64,000 nt of DNA. Origin: an uncultured Granulosicoccaceae bacterium (GTDB lineage: Bacteria > Pseudomonadota > Gammaproteobacteria > Granulosicoccales > Granulosicoccaceae). Positions 43,955 to 61,068 of the stretch are shown in pieces; positions within the stretch are counted from its first letter, which is position 1; each line of letters begins with the position of its first letter. A model generated the notes under the pieces. That model did not search any database. It saw only the letters and a program-made list of their open reading frames with translations, and had not been told where the DNA came from. Location: assembly GCA_938007995.1 (NCBI GenBank), contig CALLLW010000040.1, forward strand, positions 62,001 to 126,000, read 5' to 3'. The translations under genes were made by a program, and so were the position numbers.

Positions 43955-44719
43955 CTATCTTGGCGCCATACGTATCGCGCCATCCATCCGAATCACCTCA
44001 CCGTTGAGTAGTTGATTGCGGCAAATCTCGGTGACCAGTGACGCAAATTCTGCAGGATAACCAAGCCGTTTCGGGAACGGCACCTGCCCTGCCAGACTTT
44101 GCTGCGCTTCTTCCGGCAAACCCAGCAACAGCGGAGTGCCCATCAGGCCCGGAGCAATTGCCATGGTGCGGATACCAAAGCTTGCAAACTCTCTGGCGGC
44201 GACCAGGTTCAACGCTACAATACCACCCTTTGAAGCACTGTAAGCCGCCTGCCCGATCTGGCCATCATACGCCGCCACGGAAGCCGTGTTAACGATCACC
44301 CCGCGCTCACCATCATCGTCTAACACCTCTGCCGGAATCAACGCTTCGGCGAACAATCGCATCATGTTGTAGGTACCGACCAAATTGATATCGATGACCC
44401 GCTTGAAGTCTGCCAGCGGACTGGCCCCCTCACGACCCACAATTCGCTGCGGTGGCGCAATACCCGCGCAGTTAACCAGCACACGCGCCACACCGTGCCG
44501 CTCCCGGGCAGAAGCCAGAGCAGCCGAGACCGACTCTTCATCAGTGACATCACACAACAAGCCCAAAGCGCCAGTCTGATCTTCGATATCCTTGATTGCC
44601 TGCTGATTGACATCCAGGGCCGCCACCTGCATACCCTGCTCGCGCAAGCTCTGTACGGTTGCCGCACCCAGTCCTGAACCTCCACCCGTCACAACGGCTG
44701 CTAATCCGGATACATTCAT
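43955..44719 (-). CDS. Short-chain dehydrogenase, 3-hydroxyacyl-CoA dehydrogenase-like
   Basis: From ATG 44719, preceded by an AGGAA ribosome site, the product has 254 residues. It has the cofactor loop TGGGSGLG at 11-18, Asp in LDVNQQAI (NAD preference), NCAGIAPP, the Ser of NTASVAAYDGQIGQ, and YSASKGG with the catalytic Tyr and Lys. The sequence resembles type-II 3-hydroxyacyl-CoA dehydrogenases (HSD17B10-like), which act on short branched acyl-CoAs, or other hydroxysteroid-type enzymes. It is divergent from an ETF-ubiquinone oxidoreductase gene, so a role in acyl-CoA oxidation fits, but the substrate is inferred. Confidence 0.82.
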   Translation of the reverse strand: MNVSGLAAVVTGGGSGLGAATVQSLREQGMQVAALDVNQQAIKDIEDQTGALGLLCDVTDEESVSAALASARERHGVARVLVNCAGIAPPQRIVGREGASPLADFKRVIDINLVGTYNMMRLFAEALIPAEVLDDDGERGVIVNTASVAAYDGQIGQAAYSASKGGIVALNLVAAREFASFGIRTMAIAPGLMGTPLLLGLPEEAQQSLAGQVPFPKRLGYPAEFASLVTEICRNQLLNGEVIRMDGAIRMAPR

Positions 44720-44919
44720 TAGTGATTCCTGTGTGTGGTTAACCGCGGAGATGCATTGAGTTTTACTGGCCACAACTGCGGCCGATACATCGGTGGATTA
44801 TTATAAATCGGTGACCGCTGACGTTGGAAATATTATACTCAGTCAGTCGGCGGAATGACTTTCATCGTCAGCATACTAACGCAGTCTTTAATCAGCAGAC
44901 TTGAACCGGAGCCAGCACC

Positions 44920-46581
44920 TTGGAAACAGAACGCGAATCGATGGAATTTGACGTTGTCATCGTCGGCGGTGGTCCTGCCGGTCTGGCAACAGCCTGCCGC
45001 CTGATGCAAATGGCGGCCGAGAACGAAACCGAACTCTCAGTCGTGCTGCTCGAAAAAGGCTCTGAAGTCGGCGCACACATCTTATCCGGGGCCATCCTTG
45101 AGCCAAGAGCGTTAAATGAACTATTCCCGGACTGGAAAGAAAAAGGCGCACCGCTGCATACTGAAGTCACCGGCGATGAAATGCATTTTTACACCGGCAT
45201 GGAAAAATCGATCAAAGTGCCGAACTTTATGATCCCCAAGCCCATGCACAACGACGGCAACTATATTGTCAGCCTTGGTAACGTTGCACGCTGGATGGGT
45301 GAACAGGCAGAAGCACTGGGCGTTGAGATATTCCCGGGCTTTGCCGCCGCAGAAATTCTCTATAACGACGACGGCAGTGTTGCAGGTGTTGCCACCGGTG
45401 ATATGGGTATTGGTAAAGACGGCAAAAAGAAAGACAGTTACGAACCCGGCATGGAACTGCGTGCTAAATACACCGTATTCGCAGAAGGATGCCGCGGCCA
45501 CCTTGGCAAACAGTTAATCTCAAAGTTCAATCTTGATGAAGGCAAAAGCCCGCAACATTATGGCATCGGCTTAAAGGAACTCTGGAAAGTTGATAAAGAA
45601 AAGCATCAACCGGGTTTGGTAGTACATGGTGCAGGCTGGCCGCTGGGTGAAAGTGGCGCCACCGGTGGGTCGTTTGTTTACCATCTTGAAGATCAGCAGG
45701 TAGTGGTTGGCTTGATCGTAGACCTTAACTACAGCAACACTAACCTAAGCCCGTTTGATGAATTCCAGGTATTCAAACACCATAAATCAGTTAAAGAAGT
45801 ACTTGAAGGTGGTGAACGAATTTCCTACGGGGCCAGAGCGATTGTAAAAGGTGGCTTAAACTCGCTACCCAAAATGACCTTCCCCGGTGGTCTGGTAGTC
45901 GGATGTGATGCGGGCACATTAAACTTCTCAAAAATCAAAGGCAGCCACACCGCCATGAAGAGCGGCATGATCGCCGCCGAAACGCTTTTCGAAGAGTTTA
46001 AAACCGATGCAGAAAGCACCGGCAAAGAGCTCGATGCCTATACAAAGAATTTTGAAGAAAGCTGGCTGTATGACGAGCTATATAAATCTCGCAACTTCGG
46101 CCCTGCCATGCACAAGTTCGGCACTTATATCGGCGGTGCATTCAACTACATTGATCAAAATCTGCTTGGCGGAAAAATGCCGATCACCCTGAAAGATGGT
46201 ACCCCCGATCACGCAACCCTGAAGACCACAGAAGAAAGCCCCACCATCGAATACCCGCGCCCGGATGGCAAGATCAGTTTCGACAAACCCAGCTCCGTCT
46301 TTCTATCAAGCACCAACCACGAAGAAGACCAGCCAGCACACCTGACACTCGCCAACGCAGACATCCCGCTAGGCACCAACCTGCCCAAATGGAACGAACC
46401 CGCACAACGCTACTGCCCTGCCGGTGTATATGAAGTGGTGGAAAAAGCAGGCGAGAAACTATTTCAAATCAACGCGCAAAATTGCGTGCACTGCAAAACC
46501 TGCGATATCAAAGACCCGAGTCAGAATATTACCTGGGTTGTGCCTGAAGGTGGTGGCGGGCCAAATTATCCTAATATGTGA
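44920..46581 (+). CDS. Electron transfer flavoprotein-ubiquinone oxidoreductase
   Basis: ETF-QO passes electrons from ETF, reduced by acyl-CoA dehydrogenases, to ubiquinone at the inner membrane. The 553-residue protein starts METERESMEFDVVIVGGG, as in relatives, from TTG 44920 with GGAG upstream. The FAD motif GGGPAG is at 16-21. The 4Fe-4S ligands are Cys499, Cys522, Cys525 and Cys528 (CPAGVYEV and NCVHCKTCDIKDP), and the C-terminus ITWVVPEGGGGPNYPNM is the family's. The neighbouring short-chain dehydrogenase is consistent with fatty-acid or branched-chain catabolism. Confidence 0.96.
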   Translation: METERESMEFDVVIVGGGPAGLATACRLMQMAAENETELSVVLLEKGSEVGAHILSGAILEPRALNELFPDWKEKGAPLHTEVTGDEMHFYTGMEKSIKVPNFMIPKPMHNDGNYIVSLGNVARWMGEQAEALGVEIFPGFAAAEILYNDDGSVAGVATGDMGIGKDGKKKDSYEPGMELRAKYTVFAEGCRGHLGKQLISKFNLDEGKSPQHYGIGLKELWKVDKEKHQPGLVVHGAGWPLGESGATGGSFVYHLEDQQVVVGLIVDLNYSNTNLSPFDEFQVFKHHKSVKEVLEGGERISYGARAIVKGGLNSLPKMTFPGGLVVGCDAGTLNFSKIKGSHTAMKSGMIAAETLFEEFKTDAESTGKELDAYTKNFEESWLYDELYKSRNFGPAMHKFGTYIGGAFNYIDQNLLGGKMPITLKDGTPDHATLKTTEESPTIEYPRPDGKISFDKPSSVFLSSTNHEEDQPAHLTLANADIPLGTNLPKWNEPAQRYCPAGVYEVVEKAGEKLFQINAQNCVHCKTCDIKDPSQNITWVVPEGGGGPNYPNM

Positions 46582-46596
46582 GAGAAACGTATTGGT

Positions 46597-46626
46597 GCCT
46601 GTTGTTGACCTTGGTCAGCGACAGGC
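46597..46626. terminator. Long stem-loop after the ETF-QO gene
   Basis: GCCTGT pairs with ACAGGC and TGACC with GGTCA, with G-U pairs between them, giving about 14 paired positions and a tight loop. It begins 16 bases after the stop. No T-run follows, so it is a terminator-like structure rather than a canonical intrinsic terminator. Confidence 0.55.
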
Positions 46627-46957
46627 GATGATATACAGGTGGTGACCAACGCTAAGCTCCTGGACTAACAAAACCACAGTCAACCACATCGAGCATCAGG
46701 CCGCCTACGGCGCATGCATCAACCCATAACACGGTGCATTAGCAAAAAAATCGATCCTGCTCCCATAGGTGACACTGACCGTTCTCTCTCGGAACCGCCG
46801 TACAGAGCGAGAGACCTTGTAGTACTTTTGGCTTACTGATCCACTGGCTTGTAGAAGAGTCACTATTGCGGATACCACGTAGTGAACCCTCTATCACGCG
46901 GTGAAACAAACAGATATCTATAGCCTTGGCCTCAGTAGTAAGCTCGACAACAGTTTT

Positions 46958-46977
46958 AATGTGACATTCATCACATT
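46958..46977. promoter_or_regulatory. CRP/Vfr-type binding site
   Basis: TGTGA and TCACA half-sites are separated by exactly six bases, and AA/TT flanks extend the symmetry to seven bases per arm. This is a perfect match to the CRP consensus. Its centre is 118 bases before the ATG of the exported hydrolase gene, suitable for activation of that gene. Confidence 0.7.
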
Positions 46978-47084
46978 AATTTATGACCAAGTGCAAACTT
47001 AACTACTCCCGGCTCACAAGTGCATTTCGGTGCCACTTGTCTTACAGTAGTATTGCTTAAGTTCCATCTCATGACCTAATTCCT

Positions 47085-49676
47085 ATGTTCAACATCGTCA
47101 AGAAAGTTTCTGGTCTAGCTGCAATAGGCGCAACTCTGGCCACAGCACTGACACTCCTGTCTCCGATCGCAAACGCTCAACAAATTCCGCGCGAGCTGAC
47201 AAAGATACTTGCGATTGGTGACTCGATCACCGAAGGCTTCAGCGTCGATGGTGGCATTGAAAGTTATAGATTTCCGCTGACGTCGGAGCTGAACAACACA
47301 TCATGCAACTACCGAATGGTCGGAAGACGCACCTCAAATGTACCGGCAACAAGCTTCTTCTCACCGCATGAAGGTTACTCAGGCCACGGGGTCGAACATT
47401 TTTTAATGCAACTTGCTGGTAACCCCGGCATAGAATCCATCATCACTGACGCTGATCCGGATGTTGTGCTAATCCATCTCGGCTCTAACGACATGAACCG
47501 AAATCAGGACGAAGAACAAACCATTGGAGAACTGAATCTGCTTGTCAGCAGCATTTGGAATATCAAATCAGACACCCAGGTTTATGTGGCAAATGTAATT
47601 CCGTGGTTTGGCTCAAGCAATCTCAACCCAAACATCAGACAGTCCATAAATAGCCTTGGATCAAAGATCAATACTTGGATAACCGACTCAAATGACAGCC
47701 GACTTCACCTGGTTGACGTAAGGTCAGGTTTTATCCGCGCTTATATGCAAAGCGACGATATTCACCCGAACTCTGATGGTGACAACCACATCGCCGACGC
47801 CTTTCTGGCCGCTATTGAAGCAAACAATGACTGCCCCACCCCACCGGAAACCATCCTCGTTTCACCGGCAATACCAGACCCGAATAACCCAGGTGATACA
47901 TTTGACACATTGCCCGCCGCACACACATTCACCGGTAGTGCATTTGATATGGAGGGAGATGGCATACAGCGTGTTCGAATAGCAATAGAAGATAACAATC
48001 ACACGAACAGCTCAAACCAATGGTTTAATTTTGCGACCGGGGAATTCGGCTCATACAGCGAGACTATCGCCACTTTATCCAACCGGACAGCCACGTCCGC
48101 TACATGGAGTATTGACGTAGTACTACCCGGCGGCGGCGATTACCAGTTTTATGCATTGGCCGTGGATAACCTTGGTAATCAGAATTACTTCAATAGGGGG
48201 GTGTGGCCGGAGAATACCAGGTTCTTTACCGATGTTGACGTATCTGCACCTCAACCAACATTCACCACGCCGGAAACAGATGGTGCGATACTCACCTCCG
48301 GATCGATCAACCTCTCGGGAACAGCCACCGATACCGGCGGGTCAGGCCTCCAGGATATTCGAATTTCACTGCGTAACATATCTAGTGGAAGATGGTTTAA
48401 CTTCTCCAACAACAGTTTTACAGGAGCAATCGGTAACGGGGCAATTTCTGCCAACCAAACCAACACCTCGCCAGCAAGCGCAAGTTGGAACTACACATTT
48501 TCACTGACGCCAGGTGATTATTCAGTCCACATCAATGCCAGAGATAACGCTGGAAACACCTCAGGCTTCCAGCAACGGAAGTTTACAGTACTCCCTGACG
48601 ATACCCAGCCTCCCCAGGCACTTATTTCAACACCAGCAGCTAACGGCGACTCACTATCTACTAGCACAATTTTTACAGGCTCTGCGACCGATGCCGGTGG
48701 TTCTGGCTTCAATGACATTAGATTCGCTATCCGCAACCTTACAAACAACCGTTGGTATAACTTCAACAACAACTCGTTTAATGGCGCAGTCGGCAATGGC
48801 TCTATTGCTGCCAATCTCACTAATACTTCTATCGGCAACACCAACTGGAATGTCTCGCTTACTCTCCCCCCTGGAAATTACTCTGCCCACATCAACGCAA
48901 GAGATAATGCAGGAAACATTTCCGGATTTCGAAATCGTACATTCACTATCCTGCCCGACGACAACCAATCACCTGACGGCTTCTTTACAAATCCCGCAGT
49001 GAATAACGAAACACTCACTTCCAATATTACTTTTACTGGTACTGCGACTGATTCCGGTGGATCGGGGGTCAATGATGTCCTGTTTGCTGTCCGCGACGTC
49101 AACTCGGGCAACTGGTACAACTTCAACAACAATTCTTTCAATGGTGCTGTCGGTAATGGCTCTACCACTGCCAATCTGTCGAATACTACAACAAACAGTA
49201 CCAACTGGAATTATTCCCTCACACTACCTCCCGGTGAATATTCCGTTCATATAAATGTCAGAGACAACGCTGGTCTTATCTCTGGTTTTCAAAACCGTCG
49301 ATTTACAGTTATTCCCAACGACACTCAGTCACCCAATGGCAACATCACTACACCAGCAGTCAACAACGACACCCTGGCATCAAATATTATCTTCAGAGGC
49401 ACCGCCACTGATGGTGGTGGATCCGGCTTTAAGGATGTACTGGTATCAATAAGAGACAGGAGTACCGGCAATTGGTACAACTTTAACAACAATAGCTTCA
49501 GTGGTGCCACAGGCAATGGGGCGACTACCGCTAATCTAACTTTCACTTCCACTAATAACACCAATTGGAACTTCCCAGTTGCGCTTCCTTCTGGTAACTA
49601 CTCTGTTCACGTCAATATCCGAGATAATGCTGGAAACACCTCTGGTTTCCAGAATCGAAGATTTAGTGTGCCTTAG
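47085..49676 (+). CDS. Exported SGNH/GDSL hydrolase with C-terminal tandem repeats
   Basis: The 863-residue protein has a signal peptide (cleavage likely after Ala31 in PIANAQQ) and an SGNH hydrolase domain to about residue 245. Block I is ILAIGDSITEG with nucleophile Ser47; block III is HLGSNDMN; block V is DDIHPNSDGDNHIAD with the catalytic Asp/His pair. A divergent repeat follows at about 255-385. Then four copies of a 120-residue domain (consensus GTATDSGGSG, WYNFNNNSFNGA, YSVHINARDNAGNTSGFQNR) run to the C-terminus. Such enzymes usually deacetylate or de-esterify carbohydrates. The repeats look like Ig-like or carbohydrate-binding beta-sandwiches. No sortase or PEP-CTERM signal is present at the end. 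Confidence 0.88.
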   Translation: MFNIVKKVSGLAAIGATLATALTLLSPIANAQQIPRELTKILAIGDSITEGFSVDGGIESYRFPLTSELNNTSCNYRMVGRRTSNVPATSFFSPHEGYSGHGVEHFLMQLAGNPGIESIITDADPDVVLIHLGSNDMNRNQDEEQTIGELNLLVSSIWNIKSDTQVYVANVIPWFGSSNLNPNIRQSINSLGSKINTWITDSNDSRLHLVDVRSGFIRAYMQSDDIHPNSDGDNHIADAFLAAIEANNDCPTPPETILVSPAIPDPNNPGDTFDTLPAAHTFTGSAFDMEGDGIQRVRIAIEDNNHTNSSNQWFNFATGEFGSYSETIATLSNRTATSATWSIDVVLPGGGDYQFYALAVDNLGNQNYFNRGVWPENTRFFTDVDVSAPQPTFTTPETDGAILTSGSINLSGTATDTGGSGLQDIRISLRNISSGRWFNFSNNSFTGAIGNGAISANQTNTSPASASWNYTFSLTPGDYSVHINARDNAGNTSGFQQRKFTVLPDDTQPPQALISTPAANGDSLSTSTIFTGSATDAGGSGFNDIRFAIRNLTNNRWYNFNNNSFNGAVGNGSIAANLTNTSIGNTNWNVSLTLPPGNYSAHINARDNAGNISGFRNRTFTILPDDNQSPDGFFTNPAVNNETLTSNITFTGTATDSGGSGVNDVLFAVRDVNSGNWYNFNNNSFNGAVGNGSTTANLSNTTTNSTNWNYSLTLPPGEYSVHINVRDNAGLISGFQNRRFTVIPNDTQSPNGNITTPAVNNDTLASNIIFRGTATDGGGSGFKDVLVSIRDRSTGNWYNFNNNSFSGATGNGATTANLTFTSTNNTNWNFPVALPSGNYSVHVNIRDNAGNTSGFQNRRFSVP
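48240..49676 (+). repeat. Four tandem 357-360-base coding repeats
   Basis: Units start near 48240, 48597, 48957 and 49317, at a period of 360 bases (357 for the first). Units 2-4 are very alike at DNA level, for example around the segment encoding WYNFNNNSF, which points to recent duplication or ongoing recombination. All are in frame with the hydrolase. Confidence 0.93.
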
Positions 49677-49789: not shown

Positions 49790-50710
49790 TCAAGCGGATT
49801 CTTGGCTTGCCGCTGAGTCTAAAACAAACCTTAGACCTTGCTCGATAGAAATTCTCGTCTTCCATCCAAGTTCCCGATGTGCACGATCGCAGCATAATAT
49901 GTTTGAATGCACATCGAACTGGCGTTGCGGCTCATAGATAACTCTCAGCCTTGTATTTGCCACTAGTTCAAACTTACTAATTATTTCGTTTAACGAATAG
50001 CCGATTGACGAACCAATATTGAAAACCTGTTCACTACCTGTGTACTCGGTAGCCAACCTAACTGCCGTAGCAACATCCGCCACATAAAGAAAATCCCGAC
50101 GGACTTTTCCATCGCCCCAGATAACTATCTCTCTATTTACAATATGGGAGTTAACGACGGTACTTACAAACCCTTGCCCTTTCCGTATGTCTTGACCCAA
50201 TCCATACGGATTGGCTATTCGCAGTGAAATAGTCCTTGTATTGGAATAGTTCTCAAGCACCTTCAAATAGTTTTCGATTGCCAATTTTGAAGCACCATAG
50301 GCACTTATCGGTTGCGTTGCACTATCTTCCACTAGAGGCGAGGCATCGGAGTTACCGTAAACCGTACCTCCACTGGACGCAAAAATAACCTTTGATACAC
50401 CAAGATTAGCAGCGAACTCTGCTAATCTCACAGTGCACTCTACATGGGTATGTATATCTTCCGCAATATTTTCATTAGCAGTAGCTGGCAAACTACTAGG
50501 CGCAAGCAACACGACTGAGTCCACGTCAACAAAATATCTTGACACCTCACTCGAATTGTATAAATCCACAGCTACTTGCCTTACGCGTACCGCACCATCA
50601 TTATCGACGGTTCTAACCAACGATGTGACATCGTAGCCGTGACTTACGAGTTCATGACAAACATGTCTTCCTATAAACCCGTTGCCACCAAGTACAACGC
50701 ATTTTTTCAT
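49790..50710 (-). CDS. NAD-dependent sugar epimerase/dehydratase
   Basis: The 306-residue protein is an extended short-chain dehydrogenase acting on nucleotide sugars. It has the cofactor loop GGNGFIGRHV near the N-terminus, ASSGGTVYG with the catalytic Ser/Thr region, YGASKLAIENYL with the Tyr-Lys pair, and RIANPYGLGQ, followed by RRDFLYVADVATAV and FNIGSSIGYSLNEI. It is of the GalE/WcaG type; the exact sugar cannot be read. Its start shares bases with the methyltransferase stop (TAATG), so it is translationally coupled to that gene at the end of the glycan operon. Confidence 0.87.
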   Translation of the reverse strand: MKKCVVLGGNGFIGRHVCHELVSHGYDVTSLVRTVDNDGAVRVRQVAVDLYNSSEVSRYFVDVDSVVLLAPSSLPATANENIAEDIHTHVECTVRLAEFAANLGVSKVIFASSGGTVYGNSDASPLVEDSATQPISAYGASKLAIENYLKVLENYSNTRTISLRIANPYGLGQDIRKGQGFVSTVVNSHIVNREIVIWGDGKVRRDFLYVADVATAVRLATEYTGSEQVFNIGSSIGYSLNEIISKFELVANTRLRVIYEPQRQFDVHSNILCCDRAHRELGWKTRISIEQGLRFVLDSAASQESA

Positions 50711-51435
50711 TATATTTTTACTAGCTCTCTGCCACGTAGCTGATCTAAAGCCAGCAAACTATCCTGCTTTTGCCCTTTAATGATAACCGCTTTGCCCGCA
50801 TCAATCGAAATAGATTGAATGTTACTGCGGGTACCCAGATCAATAACTAATTCAAAAAGCAGATTGGTCATAGCAGGGTCTTTGTGCCACGCATGCGAGG
50901 TGTTCTGCATACCCGGCTTGTGGGCCCATGCCCAGTCTTCGATGATATAGGTACCACCAGCCGCCAACTTTGGAAACGTCATTTCAAAAGTGGACTTAGT
51001 TGCAGCATAGGTATGAGATGCATCATCCACTATAAGATCGATACCATTTGGAAACTCCACATCAAGAATCGAATTGATTGCACTTTCATCAGTCTGAGAC
51101 GTATTAAAGTACACGTTTACATTTCTAACTTCCTGTGAACAGTAATGCTCCAATGCATGGAAACTTTTCGCAATCTCGACACCTATAAGTGTGCTGGGCT
51201 TAAACAGCTTATCCATTAACACAAAGGAACCGCCCTGAAAAACCCCAATTTCGAGAATGGAATCAATTTTCTTTCTTTTTGCCAAACTAAAATAGTAGTT
51301 CAGCACAGGTGGGGATTTTACTAAAGTGAATGACCCCACCTCAGATGGACGTCGATCATACCCAGGGGTAGTATCGATCACGAACTCTGTACCTTCGAGT
51401 TTAAACTTGCTGGTCAATTCTTCTTTAGTTAACAT
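50710..51435 (-). CDS. Class I SAM-dependent methyltransferase
   Basis: The 241-residue protein has the Rossmann motif ILEIGVFQGGSFVLMDKLF, with the acidic residue of motif II in LIGVEIAKS, and DLIVDDASHTYAATKSTFE followed by GGTYIIEDWAWAH. This pattern matches cephalosporin-hydroxylase-like or Methyltransf_24-type methyltransferases that are common in O-antigen and exopolysaccharide clusters, where they methylate sugars. A metal-dependent mechanism is possible from the Asp-Asp and His residues. It lies 17 bases after the sulfotransferase-like gene and overlaps the epimerase. Confidence 0.82.
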   Translation of the reverse strand: MLTKEELTSKFKLEGTEFVIDTTPGYDRRPSEVGSFTLVKSPPVLNYYFSLAKRKKIDSILEIGVFQGGSFVLMDKLFKPSTLIGVEIAKSFHALEHYCSQEVRNVNVYFNTSQTDESAINSILDVEFPNGIDLIVDDASHTYAATKSTFEMTFPKLAAGGTYIIEDWAWAHKPGMQNTSHAWHKDPAMTNLLFELVIDLGTRSNIQSISIDAGKAVIIKGQKQDSLLALDQLRGRELVKI

Positions 51436-51452
51436 TAGGATTATAAACCTGG

Positions 51453-52433
51453 TTATTTATTATGTATGTGCTTATGCATTCCATATACCATCTCAGTTAT
51501 TAGAGCCCATTTATTCGCATCAACCTCATTCGGGGACGGCACGTGGTAATCATCGTTGACCGGCATAGGGAAAAGAGGGCCATCCAATCCCTCAAAATAC
51601 TTACTTTTTATCCATTCATTTGATGATTGATACCTTTCAATTATTGACCTTCTCTCTGCCCCGGTCAGCCTTGATTCACCCTTCACTTTCTTATGAGCGA
51701 GCTGACCATACTTCTGTATCATATTAAAGAATTGATTATCGTGTGGCCCTTCAAACAAACCTGGAGCTGACAGCGCAAGCTCCTCCACGGCTGTATTGTA
51801 GCTGGTATTTATATTTCCTTTTGATTTTGAAAACTCATTTGCATCAATAGCAAGCGCATCATAAAAGTCATCAACAACATCCTTATTAATCAACCTGTCC
51901 CTCTGATATACCCTTACTAATATTTTATGCGTGGCAATGGACTGCCATTCTTCAATAGGTACACGCCAGTCCCCTGCGACACCAATATTTCGGAGGAGCC
52001 ATTCGTAAAAACTCGCACCAGTTTTCAATCCCCACTGTTGCCAAGCCGACAAAAGGTAGTCATCTTGTCGTCTTACATAAATAACAACGCTAGATTCATG
52101 TTCTCGGATAGCTTCATGCAACAAGCCGTGCCATGAAAACACATTACTTAAGTTCTCTGCACTAAAGACTATTTTGTCGCAGTTTTTTTCTAAGGCAGCA
52201 CTGACGGCACAATCAATCCCCCTATTCAACTCGATCAAAGCTTCTGCCATATCCATCTGTTTGATTTTCTCAAACCACCACACATGATATCCGGTAACCT
52301 TGCCGTTTACCGTAAGATCTTCAGATGGAAGGTAGAAACCCTGCGACTCAAGTGCCACCTGGTTTGTCGCCAACGCATGCTGGATCGCAGAACTACCTGT
52401 TTTTCCGGCACCGATATGAAAATAGATATGCAT
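51453..52433 (-). CDS. Sulfotransferase-like protein (type A, first copy)
   Basis: The 326-residue protein has the 5'-phosphosulfate-binding loop near the N-terminus, FHIGAGKTGSSAIQHAL, resembling a P-loop that binds PAPS. It also has a 3'-phosphate-binding stretch around residues 115-130, VVIYVRRQDDYLLSAW. It belongs with two further genes here (55221-56297 and 57273-58190). Such proteins transfer sulfate to polysaccharide or glycan hydroxyls, though some members of this fold have other roles. It is 31 bases after the large bifunctional glycosyltransferase gene, suggesting that its acceptor is the same glycan. Confidence 0.8.
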   Translation of the reverse strand: MHIYFHIGAGKTGSSAIQHALATNQVALESQGFYLPSEDLTVNGKVTGYHVWWFEKIKQMDMAEALIELNRGIDCAVSAALEKNCDKIVFSAENLSNVFSWHGLLHEAIREHESSVVIYVRRQDDYLLSAWQQWGLKTGASFYEWLLRNIGVAGDWRVPIEEWQSIATHKILVRVYQRDRLINKDVVDDFYDALAIDANEFSKSKGNINTSYNTAVEELALSAPGLFEGPHDNQFFNMIQKYGQLAHKKVKGESRLTGAERRSIIERYQSSNEWIKSKYFEGLDGPLFPMPVNDDYHVPSPNEVDANKWALITEMVYGMHKHIHNK

Positions 52434-52464
52434 TTAGAAATGTATTTTCTAAAGGGGGCTCTTC

Positions 52465-54942
52465 CTATGCAATGATCACGCCTGTTTTTTCCTCCTCGTT
52501 AACGCAGTTAGCTTCTTTATCGTGCAATTCACTAAATATTTTAAGATAAGAGTCTGCTAACAAGTCGATACAGTACGACTCCCCGATAGCACAAGCAGTT
52601 TGTTGTTTTTGTGCGTATATCTCTTTGTCCTGTATATCCGACATCGCGTCTGTGAGCATATTTTGAAAATCATCATGCTGATGTTCTATCAAAACCCCTG
52701 CACTCATACCCTCTTTGACGATAATATTAGGTATCTCACCAATATCTGTTGATACGCAAGGCAGGCCATTCTGCAGAGCTTGAATAAGAATTAACGGGTA
52801 GGATTCCCCGGGGAACCTGGTCGGCAATAGACAACAATCACTCATTCTCATCAATCCGTGTATATTTGCCTGAAACCCAAGAAAGTATAGATCCTCGATA
52901 TCGGCATATTCATCTTCAAGATCTTCCTGGTATTCACTCTCACCGACGAGCAGTAACACAATATTGGACTGTGTCTTTTGAAGCTCTATAAATGAATTTA
53001 TTGCCTCCTCCCAACCTTTCTCTTTTACAGGTCGCGATACAAGAATAAAGACAAATGCATCATCATTTACTCCCAATACTTCACGTGTAATATGACAAGG
53101 CTTATGATCCACTGGTGTGGCATTAGGAAGTTTGGTAACCTCGGCCTTCGCCCAGGAACGCTTCCTAAGATGACGTAGATTTTTATCAGCGGTATACATC
53201 CAGTGATCCACATTTCTAACGATTTTAGTCATGTGATACTCATCTACCTCTGCAACCTCATACGTACCATGTAGCGTCACTACGTAAGGTATATCAGACT
53301 GAAATCCGAGTTCCAGAAAAAACAAACCTTCAACACCTATGTGATGTGAGTTTATTAAGGTAACACCCGTTTGTTTCAAAAACTCTTTACTACCCATCCC
53401 TCTCACGTCACTGGCTGCGTACACGGGAATTCTGCTATCCAGCAAACTATACATTTCGCTATTCACATCAGTAACATCGAGCGCTAGCATCGATACATTT
53501 ATACCGTTACGGACCAGAGCATTTGCAATAAATATAGGAAAATATTCGCCACCGCCAACATGAAAACCAAGAAATCCGATCAAGATGTGCTGACCGTTAC
53601 GCTTTGTACCCAATACTCTATCAAGGCTAATATGGTCGAATATACTCCCATCTTCCTTAAAAACTGAGTCAAATTGATCATTGAGCTGCTTGTAAAATCT
53701 CCAGGTTGTATCCTCTGTAATATTCCACTGTGATTTTACGTTTATCGCCAGTTTCTCATGCTCTTGATAATACCTCTCCCCTTTAAAACTTTTCACGGAA
53801 GTATTTGCACCATGTTGCCGGAAATACGTTGTCGCATCACAAACGTAGGCAAGCTTTCCGCCTCTGGACAATGCCAAGTAAAGGAACCAGTCACCTAGAA
53901 TGCTGAATTCCTGAGCGGTTTGCCAAATTGAATCCTCAATTTCCTGGCGCCTGATCAAGCAACCACCAACGTTTGGAATAATATTGTGTACAGAAAAAGA
54001 ACCAGAGAACCACGCTGCTGCCGGGCCTGACCGATTACTTCCCCAGATATTCGACTCGGCTCTCTCCCGGTACGCATCAAGGCCCTCTATTTCTCGACTA
54101 TCACTGTCTATAAATTGTATTTTACAAAATGCAATCATTACTGCTAAATCATCGAACGCCGGCACAAGCTTTTCCAGAAAGTCTGTTTCAGCTGAATCAT
54201 CGCTCTCACAAATCCAAACAAAGTCCCCCTGACACTGATCGAAGCCCTTACGCCATTGTTTGAAGACATTGCCAGAGTTCTGTGTATTCGGTATAAACTT
54301 GATCCTATTAGGAAACTTCTCTTGATATTCTTTTATAACATCTTCGCTTCCATCTGTGGACGCGTCATCAAGCACGATAATTTCAGTCGATTCGAAAGAC
54401 TGATACAGAATTGAATCCAGCCTCTCTGCTAAAAACTCTCTGTGGTTGTAGTTAGGTACTATAACAGACACTTTTGGAGAGCCCGATCTCTGTTGCTTGA
54501 ATTCCTCCAAACATTTGTCTAAAAAGTTTCGAAACTCGCTACTTTTTCTGTCTTTCTTATCAACACCTGCAACTGCTTTTCGCTCACGCCTAAGGTTCTT
54601 TAAATCAAGATCGGCTAGTTCATTAAGGCTTAAATTCTCAAGGTTAGGTAAGGGTGCTCTCCCCTCCAGATGACCGTACAATAGAAAGTGAGTAAATGGA
54701 TCGATCTCAGCTGCTGCGACATCTACATTTGTTTTTCGGTAGTAATCTGTACTGAACCAAGGAGCAGGGTCTAGCCCTTTAGCTGCTCCTACCTCAATAT
54801 AATGCATTATTAAGTCGTTAATCTCAGCTGGATCTGGAGATTCACTCTGAGATAAATAAAACTCGACGTTGAAATATTGACAAATCATACCCTCCACTTC
54901 AGATCTATTTTCAGTGATGGTATTTTGTTTATTGTTAATCAT
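52465..54942 (-). CDS. Bifunctional GT2-GT4 glycosyltransferase
   Basis: This 825-residue protein joins two enzymes. Residues 1-100 hold a small motif (GLDPAPWFSTDYYRKTNVDVA, FLLYGHLEGRAPLP) found at the N-terminus of many bacterial multi-domain glycosyltransferases. A GT2 domain runs from about 152 (KVSVIVPNYNHREFLAERL, DDASTDGS, ICESDDSAE with the metal-binding acidic residues). A GT4 domain of GT-B fold runs from about 450 (ILIGFLGFHVGGGEYFPIFI) with the C-terminal signature ILVSRPVKEKGWEEA and GESYPLILIQALQNGLPCVSTDIGEIP. It probably adds two different sugars to one chain. It is cytoplasmic, with no export signal. Confidence 0.88.
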   Translation of the reverse strand: MINNKQNTITENRSEVEGMICQYFNVEFYLSQSESPDPAEINDLIMHYIEVGAAKGLDPAPWFSTDYYRKTNVDVAAAEIDPFTHFLLYGHLEGRAPLPNLENLSLNELADLDLKNLRRERKAVAGVDKKDRKSSEFRNFLDKCLEEFKQQRSGSPKVSVIVPNYNHREFLAERLDSILYQSFESTEIIVLDDASTDGSEDVIKEYQEKFPNRIKFIPNTQNSGNVFKQWRKGFDQCQGDFVWICESDDSAETDFLEKLVPAFDDLAVMIAFCKIQFIDSDSREIEGLDAYRERAESNIWGSNRSGPAAAWFSGSFSVHNIIPNVGGCLIRRQEIEDSIWQTAQEFSILGDWFLYLALSRGGKLAYVCDATTYFRQHGANTSVKSFKGERYYQEHEKLAINVKSQWNITEDTTWRFYKQLNDQFDSVFKEDGSIFDHISLDRVLGTKRNGQHILIGFLGFHVGGGEYFPIFIANALVRNGINVSMLALDVTDVNSEMYSLLDSRIPVYAASDVRGMGSKEFLKQTGVTLINSHHIGVEGLFFLELGFQSDIPYVVTLHGTYEVAEVDEYHMTKIVRNVDHWMYTADKNLRHLRKRSWAKAEVTKLPNATPVDHKPCHITREVLGVNDDAFVFILVSRPVKEKGWEEAINSFIELQKTQSNIVLLLVGESEYQEDLEDEYADIEDLYFLGFQANIHGLMRMSDCCLLPTRFPGESYPLILIQALQNGLPCVSTDIGEIPNIIVKEGMSAGVLIEHQHDDFQNMLTDAMSDIQDKEIYAQKQQTACAIGESYCIDLLADSYLKIFSELHDKEANCVNEEEKTGVIIA

Positions 54943-55220
54943 ATTGAAAATAAATTCTCAAATAGCTAATACTAGAGAGCAGGTGTATTAAGGCACTTAA
55001 TACCAATGCACCGATAAAACAATTGCTTGCACATCAGCATTAGCAACATATTGACCATTCATCTAATCGGGATTCTATAAAGTACGTACGGATTGCTTTT
55101 TAACCACTCATGCAACAAAATTCGGACCTTGGTCAGTCAAAATATGAAACAATCAAGTTAGGCCGTCACACTGGGATTTAATGAGTGCCATTTTTTGGTC
55201 GTCAGAAATAACTTTTTAAT

Positions 55221-56297
55221 CTAAGCAGCTTTGGTATGTGCTTTCTTATTACTATTTCTCAAGTTTTCAAATCGAGATATTAACGCAGAGTGGCTAGCGC
55301 GCAGCTTAAACTCTTTTTCAATTTGCTCATGAAAACATCTGGCGATAGAATCGAAATATTCTGCTTCAAACCAAAGCTCTTCGCATGGCACTATCTTATT
55401 AAAGTTATACTGTCTCGGATCGTATATCTGGCCACCTAGAAACTCGTTTAGGCTTTGTGATTCATGTTTCGCATAATCGATTATTATTTCGCTGCATGCT
55501 CGTGTAACTGTAAATTTTGAACCACCTAGTTTTCCACAAAGCTGATGGCATAGTGCAGTCCACCTTAGCTCACTTACACCGTCGGGGCATTCCAATCTAT
55601 TTAGAGCATCTAAGGTCCACGCTCCTTGCTGCGTCATTGAAGAATTTCTCGCAACAATTGCCCCATGACCCTCAGTAATATCTCGAAATCCCGCCAATTC
55701 TAAACCGGACTCAGACAAAAACGACTCCAATATCGTCGAGTTTGAGCGACAAAGCACCTCAAAAGAAACAACCGAGATACTTACGTACGGAAAACCGTAT
55801 CGAGCGCGCTCAATAAGATTCTCTAACGGATAGAACCGAGGTTTTTTATAGTGTTCCGATAGGTTCTTTACACCGGACTTCAAGCACTGTTGTATAACAG
55901 ACACCGTATGTGCGTAGGGGTCTCGAACCGTAAAAACCAAGTGAACTTTAACAGATTGAAACAACAACCCCAGCCTCTGCCAGTCTTTGATACTGAAATT
56001 TGACAACGCCTCATCTGAAATAATAGCGTACTGACAAGGGGATTCCATGAACTCATTCAACACTCCTTCAACAACTTGTTCAACATCGTAAGTTTCACCA
56101 CCCGCACGTGGGCTCGTCACCTGTCCGTGGCGAATCATACGACGCAAAGTATCCCCTACACCATCACAGAAAGATGGATACAGAACCCCATATTCAGCAA
56201 GTACATTGCGGTTTTGGTTAAGAGCCCACTGAATAGATGATGTTCCTGTCTTTGGCAAACCGCCATGGATAATTAGTGTTTTATCGGAATTAGCCAT
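55221..56297 (-). CDS. Sulfotransferase-like protein (type A, second copy)
   Basis: The 358-residue protein begins LIIHGGLPKTGTSSIQWALNQN, a clear sulfotransferase phosphosulfate-binding loop. The 3'-phosphate-binding region VHLVFTVRDPYAHTVSVIQQ is near residue 117. It is related to the 51453 and 57273 genes in the start motif and in length but not closely, so these are a family of paralogues rather than recent copies. The C-terminus has many charged helices. A gap of 278 bases separates it from the GT2-GT4 gene; I see no promoter that I can certify there. Confidence 0.8.
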   Translation of the reverse strand: MANSDKTLIIHGGLPKTGTSSIQWALNQNRNVLAEYGVLYPSFCDGVGDTLRRMIRHGQVTSPRAGGETYDVEQVVEGVLNEFMESPCQYAIISDEALSNFSIKDWQRLGLLFQSVKVHLVFTVRDPYAHTVSVIQQCLKSGVKNLSEHYKKPRFYPLENLIERARYGFPYVSISVVSFEVLCRSNSTILESFLSESGLELAGFRDITEGHGAIVARNSSMTQQGAWTLDALNRLECPDGVSELRWTALCHQLCGKLGGSKFTVTRACSEIIIDYAKHESQSLNEFLGGQIYDPRQYNFNKIVPCEELWFEAEYFDSIARCFHEQIEKEFKLRASHSALISRFENLRNSNKKAHTKAA

Positions 56298-56621
56298 ATA
56301 ATATTTTTATACTAAGAACATAAATTGAACCCCTTCCGCGAAAGCATATCCCTGCCTTATCAATCCGCGAGGGCTCTTAATCGAAAATGCAATAACTTGG
56401 GTATCAGAAGTGTAGGCGGCGCAGTCTTAATTTTAGTCAGTATTCAGCGGGAAGAGTTAGGATTGGCTGATTCGAGCAATATACACGCCACCACTATAAC
56501 TCCACCTAATATAGATAGGCTTGGTTTTTGCTCATACACATGAGGCCTTGACGGCCAAAGTCGTGAGCTTGACAACCACGCAAATATGCTTCAGAAAACA
56601 TTGAGATATTAAGGTAAACAC
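56298..56621. other. Intergenic region between divergent genes
   Basis: These 324 AT-rich bases separate the second type-A sulfotransferase gene (minus) from a small plus-strand gene. A plus-strand open frame here has no family pattern and only a TTG start, so I do not call it. Promoters for both directions are expected, but no boxes are clear enough to mark. Confidence 0.35.
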
Positions 56622-56807
56622 ATGAAATCTAATCAGGAAAAAGATCTACGGTTACAACTCCGCGCTAATAGGCAAGAACGTGAAGCACTCACAAAGCTAT
56701 TAGCAGATACCAGGGCCAAAAAGCTTAAACTTGTTGAAGAACGAGACAAAATTCATAAGAAGGCGGTTAGCCTTGGTATTGAATTTGGAAAAAAAGCGAC
56801 TGCGTAA
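56622..56807 (+). CDS. Small basic coiled-coil protein
   Basis: The 61-residue product (QEKDLRLQLRANRQEREALT, then KLVEERDKIHKKAVSLGIEF) is almost entirely charged helix with no membrane segment. An AAGG stands seven bases before the ATG, a usable ribosome site. I do not recognise a family. It could be a real small gene lying within the glycan island, opposite to its neighbours, or a chance open frame. The regular heptad-like pattern and ribosome site make me favour a real gene, weakly. Confidence 0.4.
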   Translation: MKSNQEKDLRLQLRANRQEREALTKLLADTRAKKLKLVEERDKIHKKAVSLGIEFGKKATA

Positions 56808-56896
56808 AGATAGGCTGAATCGCAATATAACAGCACGATTCATTTCTGGAAAAAATAATCTTAGTACCACACTGCTGATACGACTCCCAGGCAGCC

Positions 56897-57136
56897 TCAT
56901 GCTAAAGAGGCTGCCTCTTCACCATGAACCATCTTTTCGTTACATAATATGTCCAACAACTCCTTACGTGCCAATCCGAATTCTCTAATCTTTCGATAGC
57001 AAATGCTCAAATCAACGTACACTCGCTGATTATCCGGACAAGATTCTTTGAGCTTTAAAAAAACATCTATTGCCTTCGTATGATTTCTGGCGTTTCGATA
57101 TTTTAACCCTTTAGCTCTTAGCGATTCAGATTCCAT
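56897..57136 (-). CDS. Short TPR-repeat protein
   Basis: The 79-residue product has two helix-turn-helix units typical of TPR motifs (LRAKGLKYRNARNHTKAIDVF, then NQRVYVDLSICYRKIREFGLARKEL). It is too short for a working TPR scaffold and may be the surviving end of a longer TPR-glycosyltransferase like the one at the right edge of the window, or an independent small protein. The start ATG has no clear ribosome site. It lies between two sulfotransferase genes on the same strand. Confidence 0.55.
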   Translation of the reverse strand: MESESLRAKGLKYRNARNHTKAIDVFLKLKESCPDNQRVYVDLSICYRKIREFGLARKELLDILCNEKMVHGEEAASLA

Positions 57137-57272
57137 GACTCATACATTTATTATTCAAGCATGGATCGGTAAATATATCAGCACAATACGAATATCTATC
57201 GCGGAAAAGAATCACCAAATCGGGAATTTTGAAAATTACAATATATTGCTTCGATACCATATTAAATCGGTC

Positions 57273-58190
57273 TTATAATCCCTCGAATAACAAGTGCTCT
57301 CGATTTTTTCTGTAGGCTTTCGATACAAGTCTATTGATTTCAACGAAACGTTCATACAATTCCTTTTGCTCCATTAGCGTGAGTAGCTCCGCTTCAGACT
57401 TGTTTTCTGGTCGAGAATTCACTTTTAATATTTCGGCTACCCTCCCGTTTTTCTCTGATATGTTATCACATTCATTTACTTTTATTAACTCCTCAACACC
57501 TTTAGCAGTTGGGGATCTATTCACAACCTTTGCTTCGTCTGGTACCACAATATCAGCCACCTCACTATCACATACAATATTTGCCACACGCCGAATATAC
57601 TCTGTCCGATCTTTAAACTCATATGGCACTACCTGTATATCAGACGGCAACAGAACCTCTGCCCAATGATTAAGTATTTTCAGGTAGTTGGCGCCTCCCA
57701 TATTGGCTGTTTTCAACCTGTCGTCCAGCCATTCCTTAAAGATTCTGGATTCACCACTTTTCACCGCCTGTAGATACGATGCCTCTAACCATCTGTCTTG
57801 CCGCCTCACACAGGCAACCAATCTCGTTTCGAAAGAATGAAACTGCTCGGAAATCACTTTTTGAAATTTGACTGGCAACTGCCCCCACCAGTACTCAGAG
57901 GAAAGTACTACATGTTCTACACGTTCTGAAGCAGCCTGCTCCATTATTTGTGAGAACGTATCTCTAAAGTACTGGGATCTTTCGCTCTCAACGCTCGACA
58001 AAACATCTCTATGCATACCCCACGCACCAGGATGTGCGGCTGCAAACAATAAGTGATGTGCATTTGACTTGGCACCTAACTCCGGATATAGCACACCAGC
58101 TTCAAGTAGTTTGTCACGCGCTTGAGCGAGATGCATCTGAAGAGCAGAAGATCCAGTTTTTGTAGAGCCAATATGGATAGTTATTTTCAT
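57273..58190 (-). CDS. Sulfotransferase-like protein (type A, third copy)
   Basis: The 305-residue protein has the PAPS-type loop ITIHIGSTKTGSSALQMHLAQ at its N-terminus and a 3'-phosphate-binding stretch near residue 120 (RLVACVRRQDRWLEASYLQA), followed by FKEWLDDRL. In both motifs it resembles the 51453 gene (FHIGAGKTGSSAIQ and VVIYVRRQDDYLLSAW), so these two are the closest pair. It lies 22 bases before the GT2-like gene's end on the same strand. It would act on a glycan hydroxyl in the cytoplasm before export, if sulfation is its role. Confidence 0.8.
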   Translation of the reverse strand: MKITIHIGSTKTGSSALQMHLAQARDKLLEAGVLYPELGAKSNAHHLLFAAAHPGAWGMHRDVLSSVESERSQYFRDTFSQIMEQAASERVEHVVLSSEYWWGQLPVKFQKVISEQFHSFETRLVACVRRQDRWLEASYLQAVKSGESRIFKEWLDDRLKTANMGGANYLKILNHWAEVLLPSDIQVVPYEFKDRTEYIRRVANIVCDSEVADIVVPDEAKVVNRSPTAKGVEELIKVNECDNISEKNGRVAEILKVNSRPENKSEAELLTLMEQKELYERFVEINRLVSKAYRKNREHLLFEGL

Positions 58191-58212
58191 AATATACGGT
58201 CATTAGCTACAA

Positions 58213-59127
58213 TCAAGCAGCGAGACCATGTTGCCGTGCAAAACATTCATGGATTCGGAAGTCGTTCCGAAGTATATTTTTCTCTTGTAGATCGACCAGA
58301 TCCTGCTCTGGAAGAACGAAAAGATCGTACTGTTCTCGGAGGGTTCCAGCCTTGTAACACTCGTACCAATGCCTCAGATGACTGCTAATAGCAGGCGAAA
58401 ACCTTTCATTTTTCTCAAGGCTTGAACCATAGTTGACAACCTTTTTCTCGAACTGCTCGAATGATCTGATCGGGTAGTGGAATATTTCAATATTTCGGCA
58501 TTCCGCTTTAGACCCCAGGTGTGCAGCACCATGGTTCCCCATTCCGATGGACTTTAAACCTTCCAGTCGAGTTATGACCTTTCCGGGGAGCTTCCTTATA
58601 ATGATATTTCCACTTTTCTCGCTCCATGCGGTCTCATTACAATCCGAATCTATGTTCCTGATAACTGCATAGTTGTTTTGGTGAAATTGATAGTCTTGTT
58701 TTGCCGTTGTTTCCTTTGACGCTATCATGTTCTGTCGTCTACAGGTAAGCACCCCGACATCACTCGATGCTGAGCTCACTGTTTCCAGTATACCTTTGCG
58801 GAGATCTTCAGCATCCGTTAGCCAGAATTCATCTGCGTCATTGTTTATAACCCAGTCACTATCATCATTTTCTCTTAGCCAGTTAGCCATTCGGGTGACC
58901 CATCGATCTTGATCAATCGTTAGCGATGGCTCATCAAATATTTTAATGTCAAACTCTTTAGATAGTTCAGCCAAAATCTCTCTTGTACCATCCAGCGAGG
59001 AATTATCAGTAACTACAAATTTGTCAACACCAGCAGCAGCGTGAAACCTGATGTTATGCTCAATTATATCTCCCTCGTCACGAGCGAGAATCGTCATCGC
59101 CAGTTTCATGTTTTTAATATTATCCAT
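58213..59127 (-). CDS. GT2-like glycosyltransferase
   Basis: From ATG 59127 the product has 304 residues; the frame is open upstream to a GTG at 59175, and ATG 59109 is also possible. The domain begins KLAMTILARDEGDIIEHNIRFH and has VTDNSSLDGTREIL and an acidic NNDADEFWLT motif. The DxD in this motif is the metal-binding centre of this glycosyltransferase group (Glyco_tranf_2_4 type). A histidine-rich HYPIRSFEQFEKKV stretch follows, common in these enzymes. The acceptor and donor sugars are unknown. Confidence 0.83.
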   Translation of the reverse strand: MDNIKNMKLAMTILARDEGDIIEHNIRFHAAAGVDKFVVTDNSSLDGTREILAELSKEFDIKIFDEPSLTIDQDRWVTRMANWLRENDDSDWVINNDADEFWLTDAEDLRKGILETVSSASSDVGVLTCRRQNMIASKETTAKQDYQFHQNNYAVIRNIDSDCNETAWSEKSGNIIIRKLPGKVITRLEGLKSIGMGNHGAAHLGSKAECRNIEIFHYPIRSFEQFEKKVVNYGSSLEKNERFSPAISSHLRHWYECYKAGTLREQYDLFVLPEQDLVDLQEKNILRNDFRIHECFARQHGLAA

Positions 59128-59181
59128 ATATTTTGTTACTAGTGAATTGCGTGTAATCGGAACGATACCGGTCACAAAACC

Positions 59182-59436
59182 TCAGTATTTGCTTGGAGGC
59201 CATCCAAACTGATATCTGACTTGGGGCAGCCCATGCTTCAAGAAAATTGAGCTCAACACATTAAGTATAGAATATTCGTGCCAGCGAAAAGATTCACTGA
59301 CCTTCAAGAGACGCTTTGCAGGTACGTTTTTTGCGCGAATCAAATACCGTATTCCACCTACCTCTCCCACAGCGCTATTCGAAAATATAACGAGCCACTT
59401 TGCCCAAACAAATGAAGGCAGTAACACTAGAATCAA
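59182..59436 (-). pseudogene. Possible remnant of a glycan-locus gene
   Basis: The 84-residue frame reads VGGIRYLIRAKNVPAKRLLK and then FRWHEYSILNVLSSIFLKHG, ending QFGWPPSKY. This looks like a genuine protein tail rather than noise. Its 5' end, however, overlaps the start of the plus-strand GT61 gene and lacks a sensible N-terminal domain. It may be the 3' end of a gene whose front was lost when the divergent gene arrived. I cannot name its family. It could also be a small intact gene or a chance frame. Confidence 0.3.
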
Positions 59437-60464
59437 GCACGAGTTTTCGAACGCGTTTACAGACGTTTCCGCCTGTAAAATATGATCTAATAAACCCGAC
59501 GCTCTCGAATGCAGAGAATCTGTCGGAAACTATAAAGAAACTGGTACTGGCAGAACATGATAAGCCGCTTGTAACATGCCCGGAAATCACTGTTTCCTGT
59601 CTTGATGACGTTGTCGTTAATCCGAATGGCAGCTTACTTGATTTATCTGGAAACGTAATAAATGAATCTGTGCATGATTTCCCACCAAAAATGGGTTACG
59701 AAAAAACCACCCCTCTCTCAACATCTGATCACCCCGGCATTCTTCTTTTTAAATACGGATTTAGAAACTACGGACACTGGCTCATAGAAATGCTGCCGAA
59801 GCTCCATTTTTTACAAAATACTCTACGGGACAATCCTGAGTGCAAAATTTTAATTGGTGATACAAAGGGCGCTATGAGAGACATTGCTTATTCCACTCTC
59901 GCGAAGTTTGGCGTGAACAAAGATTCGACAATTCCGATTGAGTACAGCACAAAGTTCAAGACGCTATTCTATTGCAGCCCGATTACAAAACACCCATTTA
60001 TGATGCGGCCTGAAATCACACAGTTTTATAGTAAACATGCTAAAAAATGCCTTGAGCCCAACAATAAGCTGTTTATTACACGACCTTTAAACGGCAACAG
60101 AGTCCTAAGTGACCTTAAGACTGTTGAATCGTATTTCAGAAATCGCGGCTACATCGTATTAAACCCCGGAACTCTGTCATTCGATGAACAAGTTGAGGTA
60201 TTCAGAAAAGCCGGTATAGTTGTCGGCATTGCAGGTGCCGCTATGACAAATACAGTATTTTGCGCCAAGGACACAAAGGTCGTACATATTGCCCCCCCTT
60301 CTATGCCAAACCTCTTTTTCTATCAGTTAGCATCAATTTGTAACCATCAATATTACGAATTTAGAGGCTATGCGGATACCGGGATGTTTGGTAATTCTTT
60401 CGACGCGAATTTTGATGAGCTATGTCACTTCATAGAAAATATTGATGCCAGTATTTCAAACTAA
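59412..60464 (+). CDS. GT61-family glycosyltransferase
   Basis: From ATG 59412 (TTG 59400 is four codons earlier) the product has 350 residues. It carries the DUF563/GT61 signature: FKYGFRNYGHWLIEMLPKLHFLQ in the middle, ILIGDTKGAM, KLFITRPLNGNRVLSD, and the C-terminal VVGIAGAAMTNTVFCAKDTKVVHIAPP. GT61 enzymes add pentoses or N-acetylglucosamine to glycans or proteins. It overlaps the next gene by 20 bases. It is transcribed opposite to most of the glycan block, and so may be a separate module. Confidence 0.87.
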   Translation: MKAVTLESSTSFRTRLQTFPPVKYDLINPTLSNAENLSETIKKLVLAEHDKPLVTCPEITVSCLDDVVVNPNGSLLDLSGNVINESVHDFPPKMGYEKTTPLSTSDHPGILLFKYGFRNYGHWLIEMLPKLHFLQNTLRDNPECKILIGDTKGAMRDIAYSTLAKFGVNKDSTIPIEYSTKFKTLFYCSPITKHPFMMRPEITQFYSKHAKKCLEPNNKLFITRPLNGNRVLSDLKTVESYFRNRGYIVLNPGTLSFDEQVEVFRKAGIVVGIAGAAMTNTVFCAKDTKVVHIAPPSMPNLFFYQLASICNHQYYEFRGYADTGMFGNSFDANFDELCHFIENIDASISN

Positions 60465-61068
60465 CACCGGTCTTGTCTTTTTTTCCCATATTCCAAAATG
60501 CGCTGGAATGAGTGTAGAGAAGGCCTTTTCGACATACCCGACACATTTGAAAAACCCGAACCTTCATGGCAAAAACCAGTTAGGCTTCCCTTGTTCGCCT
60601 CAGCATTTTCATGCAGAAATTATTCAAAAGATGTTTTCTGCTGAATCTTTTCGGTATGCTTTCACAGTAGTTCGTAATCCATTCGATAGGATTATCAGCG
60701 AGTATCGATTCAGAGCGGATATTGCAGCTCGACAAAAAACCGAATTACCAGAATTTAACGAATGGCTTGAGTCGTCCTTAATTAAATATGATCTTGATAA
60801 CTACTTATTAGATAATCACATACGACCACAAATTGAGTTTTTAATCCCTGGAATCGACATCTACAAATTAGAAATCGGAGCGGCGGAAATATTAATGCAG
60901 ATACAGCTTAAACTGCCAGAGCTTAAATTAAAGCCGCCAAATATAGCAAACGCTTCACGATCTGAAAGACCACAACTTAATGATGCTAGTATCAAATCAG
61001 TACAGAGTTTTTACGCAGAAGATTTCGAACGATTTGGATACGAGACTGAGTATCGACTGTACAAATAA
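60445..61068 (+). CDS. Sulfotransferase family 2-like protein
   Basis: The 207-residue product has the phosphosulfate loop FFSHIPKCAGMSVEKAFS and the 3'-phosphate-binding FTVVRNPFDRIISEYRF. This pattern is that of carbohydrate sulfotransferases of the HNK-1/Gal-3-O type (Sulfotransfer_2), different from the three type-A copies. It ends with SVQSFYAEDFERFGYE, typical of this group. The gene overlaps the GT61 gene by 20 bases, so the pair is translationally coupled and probably acts on the same sugar. It converges with the large gene at 61082. Confidence 0.86.
   Translation: MPVFQTNTGLVFFSHIPKCAGMSVEKAFSTYPTHLKNPNLHGKNQLGFPCSPQHFHAEIIQKMFSAESFRYAFTVVRNPFDRIISEYRFRADIAARQKTELPEFNEWLESSLIKYDLDNYLLDNHIRPQIEFLIPGIDIYKLEIGAAEILMQIQLKLPELKLKPPNIANASRSERPQLNDASIKSVQSFYAEDFERFGYETEYRLYK

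Follow-up and report, generated by a model that had tools for sequence, protein, structure and literature searches.

In Escherichia coli, the operators of class I and class II CRP-dependent promoters possess the core TGTGA-N6-TCACA with A/T-rich flanks, and a single site lies upstream of one gene. CRP sites act near -41.5, -61.5, -72.5 or -92.5 from the transcription start. According to a review (PMC7247823), the cues for Vfr in Pseudomonas aeruginosa are calcium, osmolarity and surfaces and not sugars, and catabolite control may go via Crc. A third reference point is the acetyl-esterase type of SGNH/GDSL hydrolases, for which solved structures exist (2vpt; 5b5s/5b5l). Here we describe a locus that combines features of these systems. 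It is located in a stretch of 64,000 nucleotides from an uncultured Granulosicoccaceae bacterium, which is called the window in the following; the corresponding genome (G000) comprises 4.69 Mb and is 91% complete.

The locus consists of a candidate CRP/Vfr-type operator, AATGTGACATTCATCACATT, in front of a gene coding for an SGNH/GDSL hydrolase (Table 1). The initial annotation had pointed out a TGTGA-N6-TCACA element with symmetric flanks in an intergenic region of 503 bases, and both statements were confirmed: the arms TTAATGTGA and TCACATTAA form a perfect palindrome over nine bases, and the gap between the stop codon of the gene for ETF-ubiquinone oxidoreductase (ETF-QO, last base 46581) and the ATG of the hydrolase gene (47085) has exactly this length. 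This ATG is the earliest ATG, GTG or TTG in the hydrolase ORF, and the centre of the operator is 117 bases upstream of it. Core, A/T-rich flanks and the position of a single site upstream of one gene agree with the E. coli operators mentioned above; the candidate operator would thus belong to an already known type and is in this respect unremarkable.

Table 1. Features of the window, and genes next to A/T-flanked CRP-type sites in related genomes (distances in bases)
Feature	Position	Strand	Remarks
Candidate CRP/Vfr-type operator	46958..46977	no strand	exact core 46960-46975; perfect 9-base arms
Intergenic region	46582..47084	+	503 bases; would contain the promoter
Possible -10 hexamer TAGTAT	47048..47053	+	4/6 match; read by eye; speculative
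ETF-QO	44920..46581	+	upstream neighbour; synteny anchor
SGNH/GDSL hydrolase, C-terminal Ig-like repeats	47085..49676	+	863 aa; first gene after the site
Putative signal peptide	47085..47177	+	residues 1-31, ends ANA; judged by eye from the translation
SGNH/GDSL catalytic domain	47211..47780	+	residues 43-232; GDSIT, GSND, DDIHP motifs
Site in G013			128 before bacterial sugar transferase; polysaccharide-type neighbours (by eye)
Site in G008			307 to farthest start of Poly_export gene, followed by chain-length-type ORF (by eye)
Site in G001			374 before family 2 glycosyltransferase; other side: aldo-keto-reductase-like ORF, 372
Site in G003			131 before PilZ protein
Site in G003			82 before DUF11-repeat protein
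Site in G011			329 before Big_9 protein; other side: carbon-nitrogen hydrolase, nearer (89)
Site in G012			267 before Big_9 protein; other side: topoisomerase-like ORF, nearer (241)
Remaining sites, no theme			photolyase; two transposase-like ORFs; 179-aa ORF without Pfam match; L048 and L055 without nameable gene

The putative TAGTAT hexamer would set the operator near -92.5, which is a class I spacing of CRP; note that such a hexamer match is cheap. A promoter scan proposed one sigma-70-like pair (46605-46632), which is located upstream of the site and is at chance level, and none at TAGTAT.

The assignment of the downstream gene is based on Pfam scores of 63 bits for Lipase_GDSL_2 (cut-off 32.9) and 58.6 bits for Big_13 (cut-off 27). 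The motifs of the catalytic domain are those of SGNH hydrolases, and the GDS, G, N and DxxH blocks of this family are all present. A profile of four proteins, among them the one of the window, matched the solved structures 2vpt (lipolytic enzyme) and 5b5s/5b5l (acetyl esterase) with E-values of 4.8e-16 and 5.1e-13; the GDS, GSND and DxxHP motifs are common to these enzymes and the window hydrolase. Unlike these proteins, the window hydrolase contains fused Ig-like repeats, which follow the SGNH domain. To judge from its secreted-looking N-terminus, the enzyme would be exported. Further downstream, at 50710-61068, the window contains a glycosyltransferase cluster and one Pfam-supported sulfotransferase; three additional ORFs in this region look like sulfotransferases by eye and have no Pfam match. 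As the solved relatives include an acetyl esterase and as glycosyltransferase and sulfotransferase genes follow downstream, the link to polysaccharide proposed for the hydrolase is plausible, and one may reasonably guess that it acts on polysaccharide of the cell surface or the extracellular space.

The occurrence of the motif was assessed by means of pattern searches in the genome and the genus. In the window, TGTGA-N6-TCACA has one match, which is exact and remains the only one if one mismatch is tolerated; with this tolerance, shuffled windows contain on average 2.76 matches, and therefore no conclusion can be drawn from the number of matches in the window. In the whole genome, 10 exact cores contrast with 2 for the reversed control, which is a modest excess. 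With at most one mismatch the numbers are 131 and 118; thus, near-matches are background and only the exact cores stand out. Most of the exact cores, seven out of 10, are located within ORFs of at least 100 aa. In one of these cases (L011) the homologue aligns only from residue 48 onwards and the site precedes this residue, so that the ORF, as judged from this alignment, is probably over-long. Searching the consensus AAATGTGA-N6-TCACATTT with up to three mismatches gave 12 matches versus 9 for the reversed control; the window site is the best of these with two mismatches, and the other 11 have three, near background. For sites with A/T flanks, defined as WWN-core-NWW, the window's genome alone shows no excess (1 versus 1 in the control). 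Across 14 genomes of the genus there are 15 such sites versus 3 in the control, and five of the genomes have none. Scrambling the palindrome at unchanged composition gave 1 match in the 14 genomes, and the reversal of this scrambled pattern gave 2.

The strongest evidence for an operator comes from a single pair of loci, namely that of the window and its positional orthologue in the congeneric genome G006 (6.2 Mb). The SGNH domains of the two hydrolases are 58% identical. In both genomes the hydrolase is preceded by ETF-QO (90% identity) and by a histidine kinase and a response regulator (named by eye). The synteny is imperfect: G006 has an extra ORF of 786 aa before the hydrolase, and a dehydrogenase-like ORF of the window (43955-44773, between response regulator and ETF-QO) is missing from its ORF list. 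G006 carries TAATGTGATCTCTGTCACATAA, in which A/T flanks again surround an exact core. Its centre is 66 bases upstream of the start codon of the hydrolase, and it is one of only two A/T-flanked sites in this genome. In comparison to the window's TAATGTGACATTCATCACATTA, the core is identical, and five of the six spacer bases as well as one flank base differ. The surroundings have diverged: local alignment of one gap with the other yields, as its top result, a 14-column match away from the site, and the longest word common to both on the same strand is the half-site TAATGTGA. The distance to the start codon differs as well (117 versus 66 bases). In first-order Markov copies of the window gap such a site occurred in 87 of 800000 cases; for the G006 gap the number was 57 of 800000 (about 7e-5). 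The conservation of the site together with its target is observed at the only positional orthologue found (n = 1).

The architecture of the G006 hydrolase (L083:8247-13375) differs from that of the window protein: by eye, the repeats precede the SGNH domain. Next to it, on the downstream side, comes a galactose-oxidase-like protein that also carries Ig-like repeats, which illustrates domain shuffling within one locus.

The arrangement was also sought elsewhere. Among 11 ETF-QO loci with a readable 3' end, only that of the window shows the hydrolase downstream; the stretch considered was at most 1500 bases long (239 in L095, about 990 in L093), and the hydrolase of G006 lies beyond it. Searching up to 500 bases before the farthest start of 29 other homologues with given loci (out of 51 other rows), the exact core was found in G006 only; the homologue of G009 carries TGAGAACTGCTTCTCA with two mismatches. 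A search of named genomes with residues 1-252 of the hydrolase as a single sequence gave no relative. With a four-sequence alignment as query (third row shortened), 505 relatives were found in named genomes, 80 of which were kept. The exact core is absent from the DNA preceding the matched region in all of these 80 (up to 700 bases considered), and tolerating one mismatch gave 1 match versus 3 for the control.

Of the 15 A/T-flanked sites of the genus, 14 do not lie wholly within any ORF of at least 100 aa, and the exception is in an ORF of exactly 100 aa; two more (L055 and L062) overlap the end of an ORF. A second target is shared by the window's genome and G006: an exact core is located between a photolyase gene and the divergent gene of a 161-aa protein, with a gene for a further protein nearby (contig C65 of G000, L011:1501-1516; contig C45 of G006, L056:1123-1144). 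These neighbours are 67.9, 66.5 and 75% identical, and only the site of G006 has A/T flanks. Two similar-looking transposase-like ORFs (L058:436-1461 and L061:433-1443), which presumably are RayT-like, follow consensus CRP-type sites at distances of 73 and 68 bases; neither has a Pfam match. The giant DUF11-repeat protein behind a site of G003 (L110:1900-6999) contains a weak, divergent SGNH-like domain (34.9 bits, cut-off 32.9); it was rejected as a relative of the window hydrolase, as there is no BLAST similarity. Several of the genes in Table 1 relate to the cell surface; the control palindromes occur too rarely to provide a gene-matched comparison for this theme. One may tentatively envisage, as a possibility that we regard as rather less than even, a CRP/Vfr regulon redirected to the cell surface in this uncultured lineage. 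Its few operators of consensus quality would serve polysaccharide export and assembly, PilZ signalling and secreted repeat proteins including the modular SGNH esterase, and the trigger would be a class III cyclase and not sugar status. The esterase would then be a case in which the operator was kept while the protein domains were reshuffled.

A cognate regulator is encoded in the same genome. The initial annotation had made its proposal dependent on a crp homologue, and contig C8 of G000 indeed contains a CRP orthologue, scoring 351 bits with NF008732 (CRP, cut-off 266). Its closest solved relatives are Vfr of P. aeruginosa and, next, CRP of E. coli. In the printed alignment, the recognition helix stretch GCSREMVGRVLK is the same as in Vfr, and it is identical in all 13 crp loci that were read. 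An orthologue above the NF008732 cut-off occurs in 13 of the 14 genus genomes; the exception, G001, is 80% complete. As in P. aeruginosa, the gene adjoins one that is trpC-like as judged by eye. Upstream of crp, 6 of 13 loci (L063-L075) have in common the imperfect CRP-like sequence TWATGTGAGTTGWATCAACTTA with two mismatches, which may be a site used for autoregulation or simply conserved DNA.

With respect to the signal, the genus deviates from E. coli. Neither a class I adenylate cyclase nor a glucose-type EIIA of the PTS was detected in any of the 14 genomes by searches that find both in E. coli. Since the window's genome is 91% complete, the absence there alone is weak; the absence from 14 genomes, eight of which combine a completeness of 90% or more with a contamination of 5% or less, is stronger. 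Class III cyclase domains are present in all 14 genomes, one of them in the window's genome. In this protein of 430 aa, Pfam identifies the catalytic domain only, and upstream of its gene there is no near CRP-type site (the best has three mismatches). With no class I cyclase and no glucose-type EIIA found, the input must differ from that of E. coli, and one resembling that of Vfr is a better fit than carbon control of the enteric kind. The Vfr/CyaB system has a class III cyclase domain in common with the genus, CyaB of P. aeruginosa being a class III cyclase; the cyclase found here gave only the catalytic domain in Pfam and is at most a possible equivalent of CyaB. The proposal of the initial annotation that the hydrolase is under CRP-type control by carbon status has therefore to be divided. 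Its CRP part is supported by the presence of the CRP/Vfr orthologue and by the conservation of the site at one positional orthologue, whereas its carbon-status part is not supported: the components of the enteric route from sugar to cAMP were found in none of the 14 genomes.

How these findings are weighed depends on the alternatives. That the palindrome has arisen by chance and plays no role would agree with an excess of exact cores that is only modest, with near-matches at background and with the count of 1 versus 1 for A/T-flanked sites in the window's genome; it would, however, leave the recurrence of core and A/T flanks in G006, within a gap whose spacer and surroundings have diverged, to an event with a simulated frequency of about 7e-5, and we consider it very improbable. 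We regard it as most improbable that another protein of the CRP/FNR family uses the site. A second protein of this kind is encoded in the window's genome (L002, 28.1 bits with PF00325), and several more exist in relatives, but L002 reaches only 40 bits with the CRP profile (cut-off 266), and its helix reads AREVVSR, which we assume to be nearer to the FNR type. FNR-type proteins prefer TTGAT half-sites, whereas a Vfr-type protein fits TGTGA.

The site might be real and repressing, for instance as an obstacle to a promoter or to elongation, and the only sigma-70-like pair that was found does lie upstream of it, though at chance level; as distances of 117 and 66 bases to the start codons are compatible with the positions of an activator, given general knowledge of CRP promoters, repression appears unlikely. 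Carbon status, too, could control polysaccharide use via a non-enteric route. CRP orthologue and site are at hand, some carbon link is favoured by biofilm dispersal of P. aeruginosa on glucose starvation, which acts through cAMP-Vfr according to the review cited above (PMC7247823), and the title of another paper (PMC12654477) connects Crc with the cyclase CyaB. Against this stands the lack of class I cyclase and glucose-type EIIA in all 14 genomes, and we rate such a route as improbable, too.

The explanation that accounts best for the data, and which we consider quite probable as a whole, is a CRP/Vfr operator that serves polysaccharide remodelling. A class III adenylate cyclase would raise the level of cAMP, the cAMP-bound CRP/Vfr dimer would bind to the palindrome, and the bound dimer would most likely activate the gene of the SGNH esterase. 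Once exported, this enzyme would trim or remodel polysaccharides that carry acyl groups, either on the cell surface or outside the cell. The signal would be other than sugar status.

A search of titles and the beginnings of abstracts gave no report on a CRP regulon in Granulosicoccaceae. The site has been kept in a related bacterium, so that the switch is probably real, although it seems to lack the customary input from sugar sensing. For an uncultured gammaproteobacterial lineage, the locus provides a defined operator that can be put to the test, together with a candidate CRP/Vfr regulon, and it suggests that cAMP in this lineage may steer surface polysaccharide rather than the choice of sugars.
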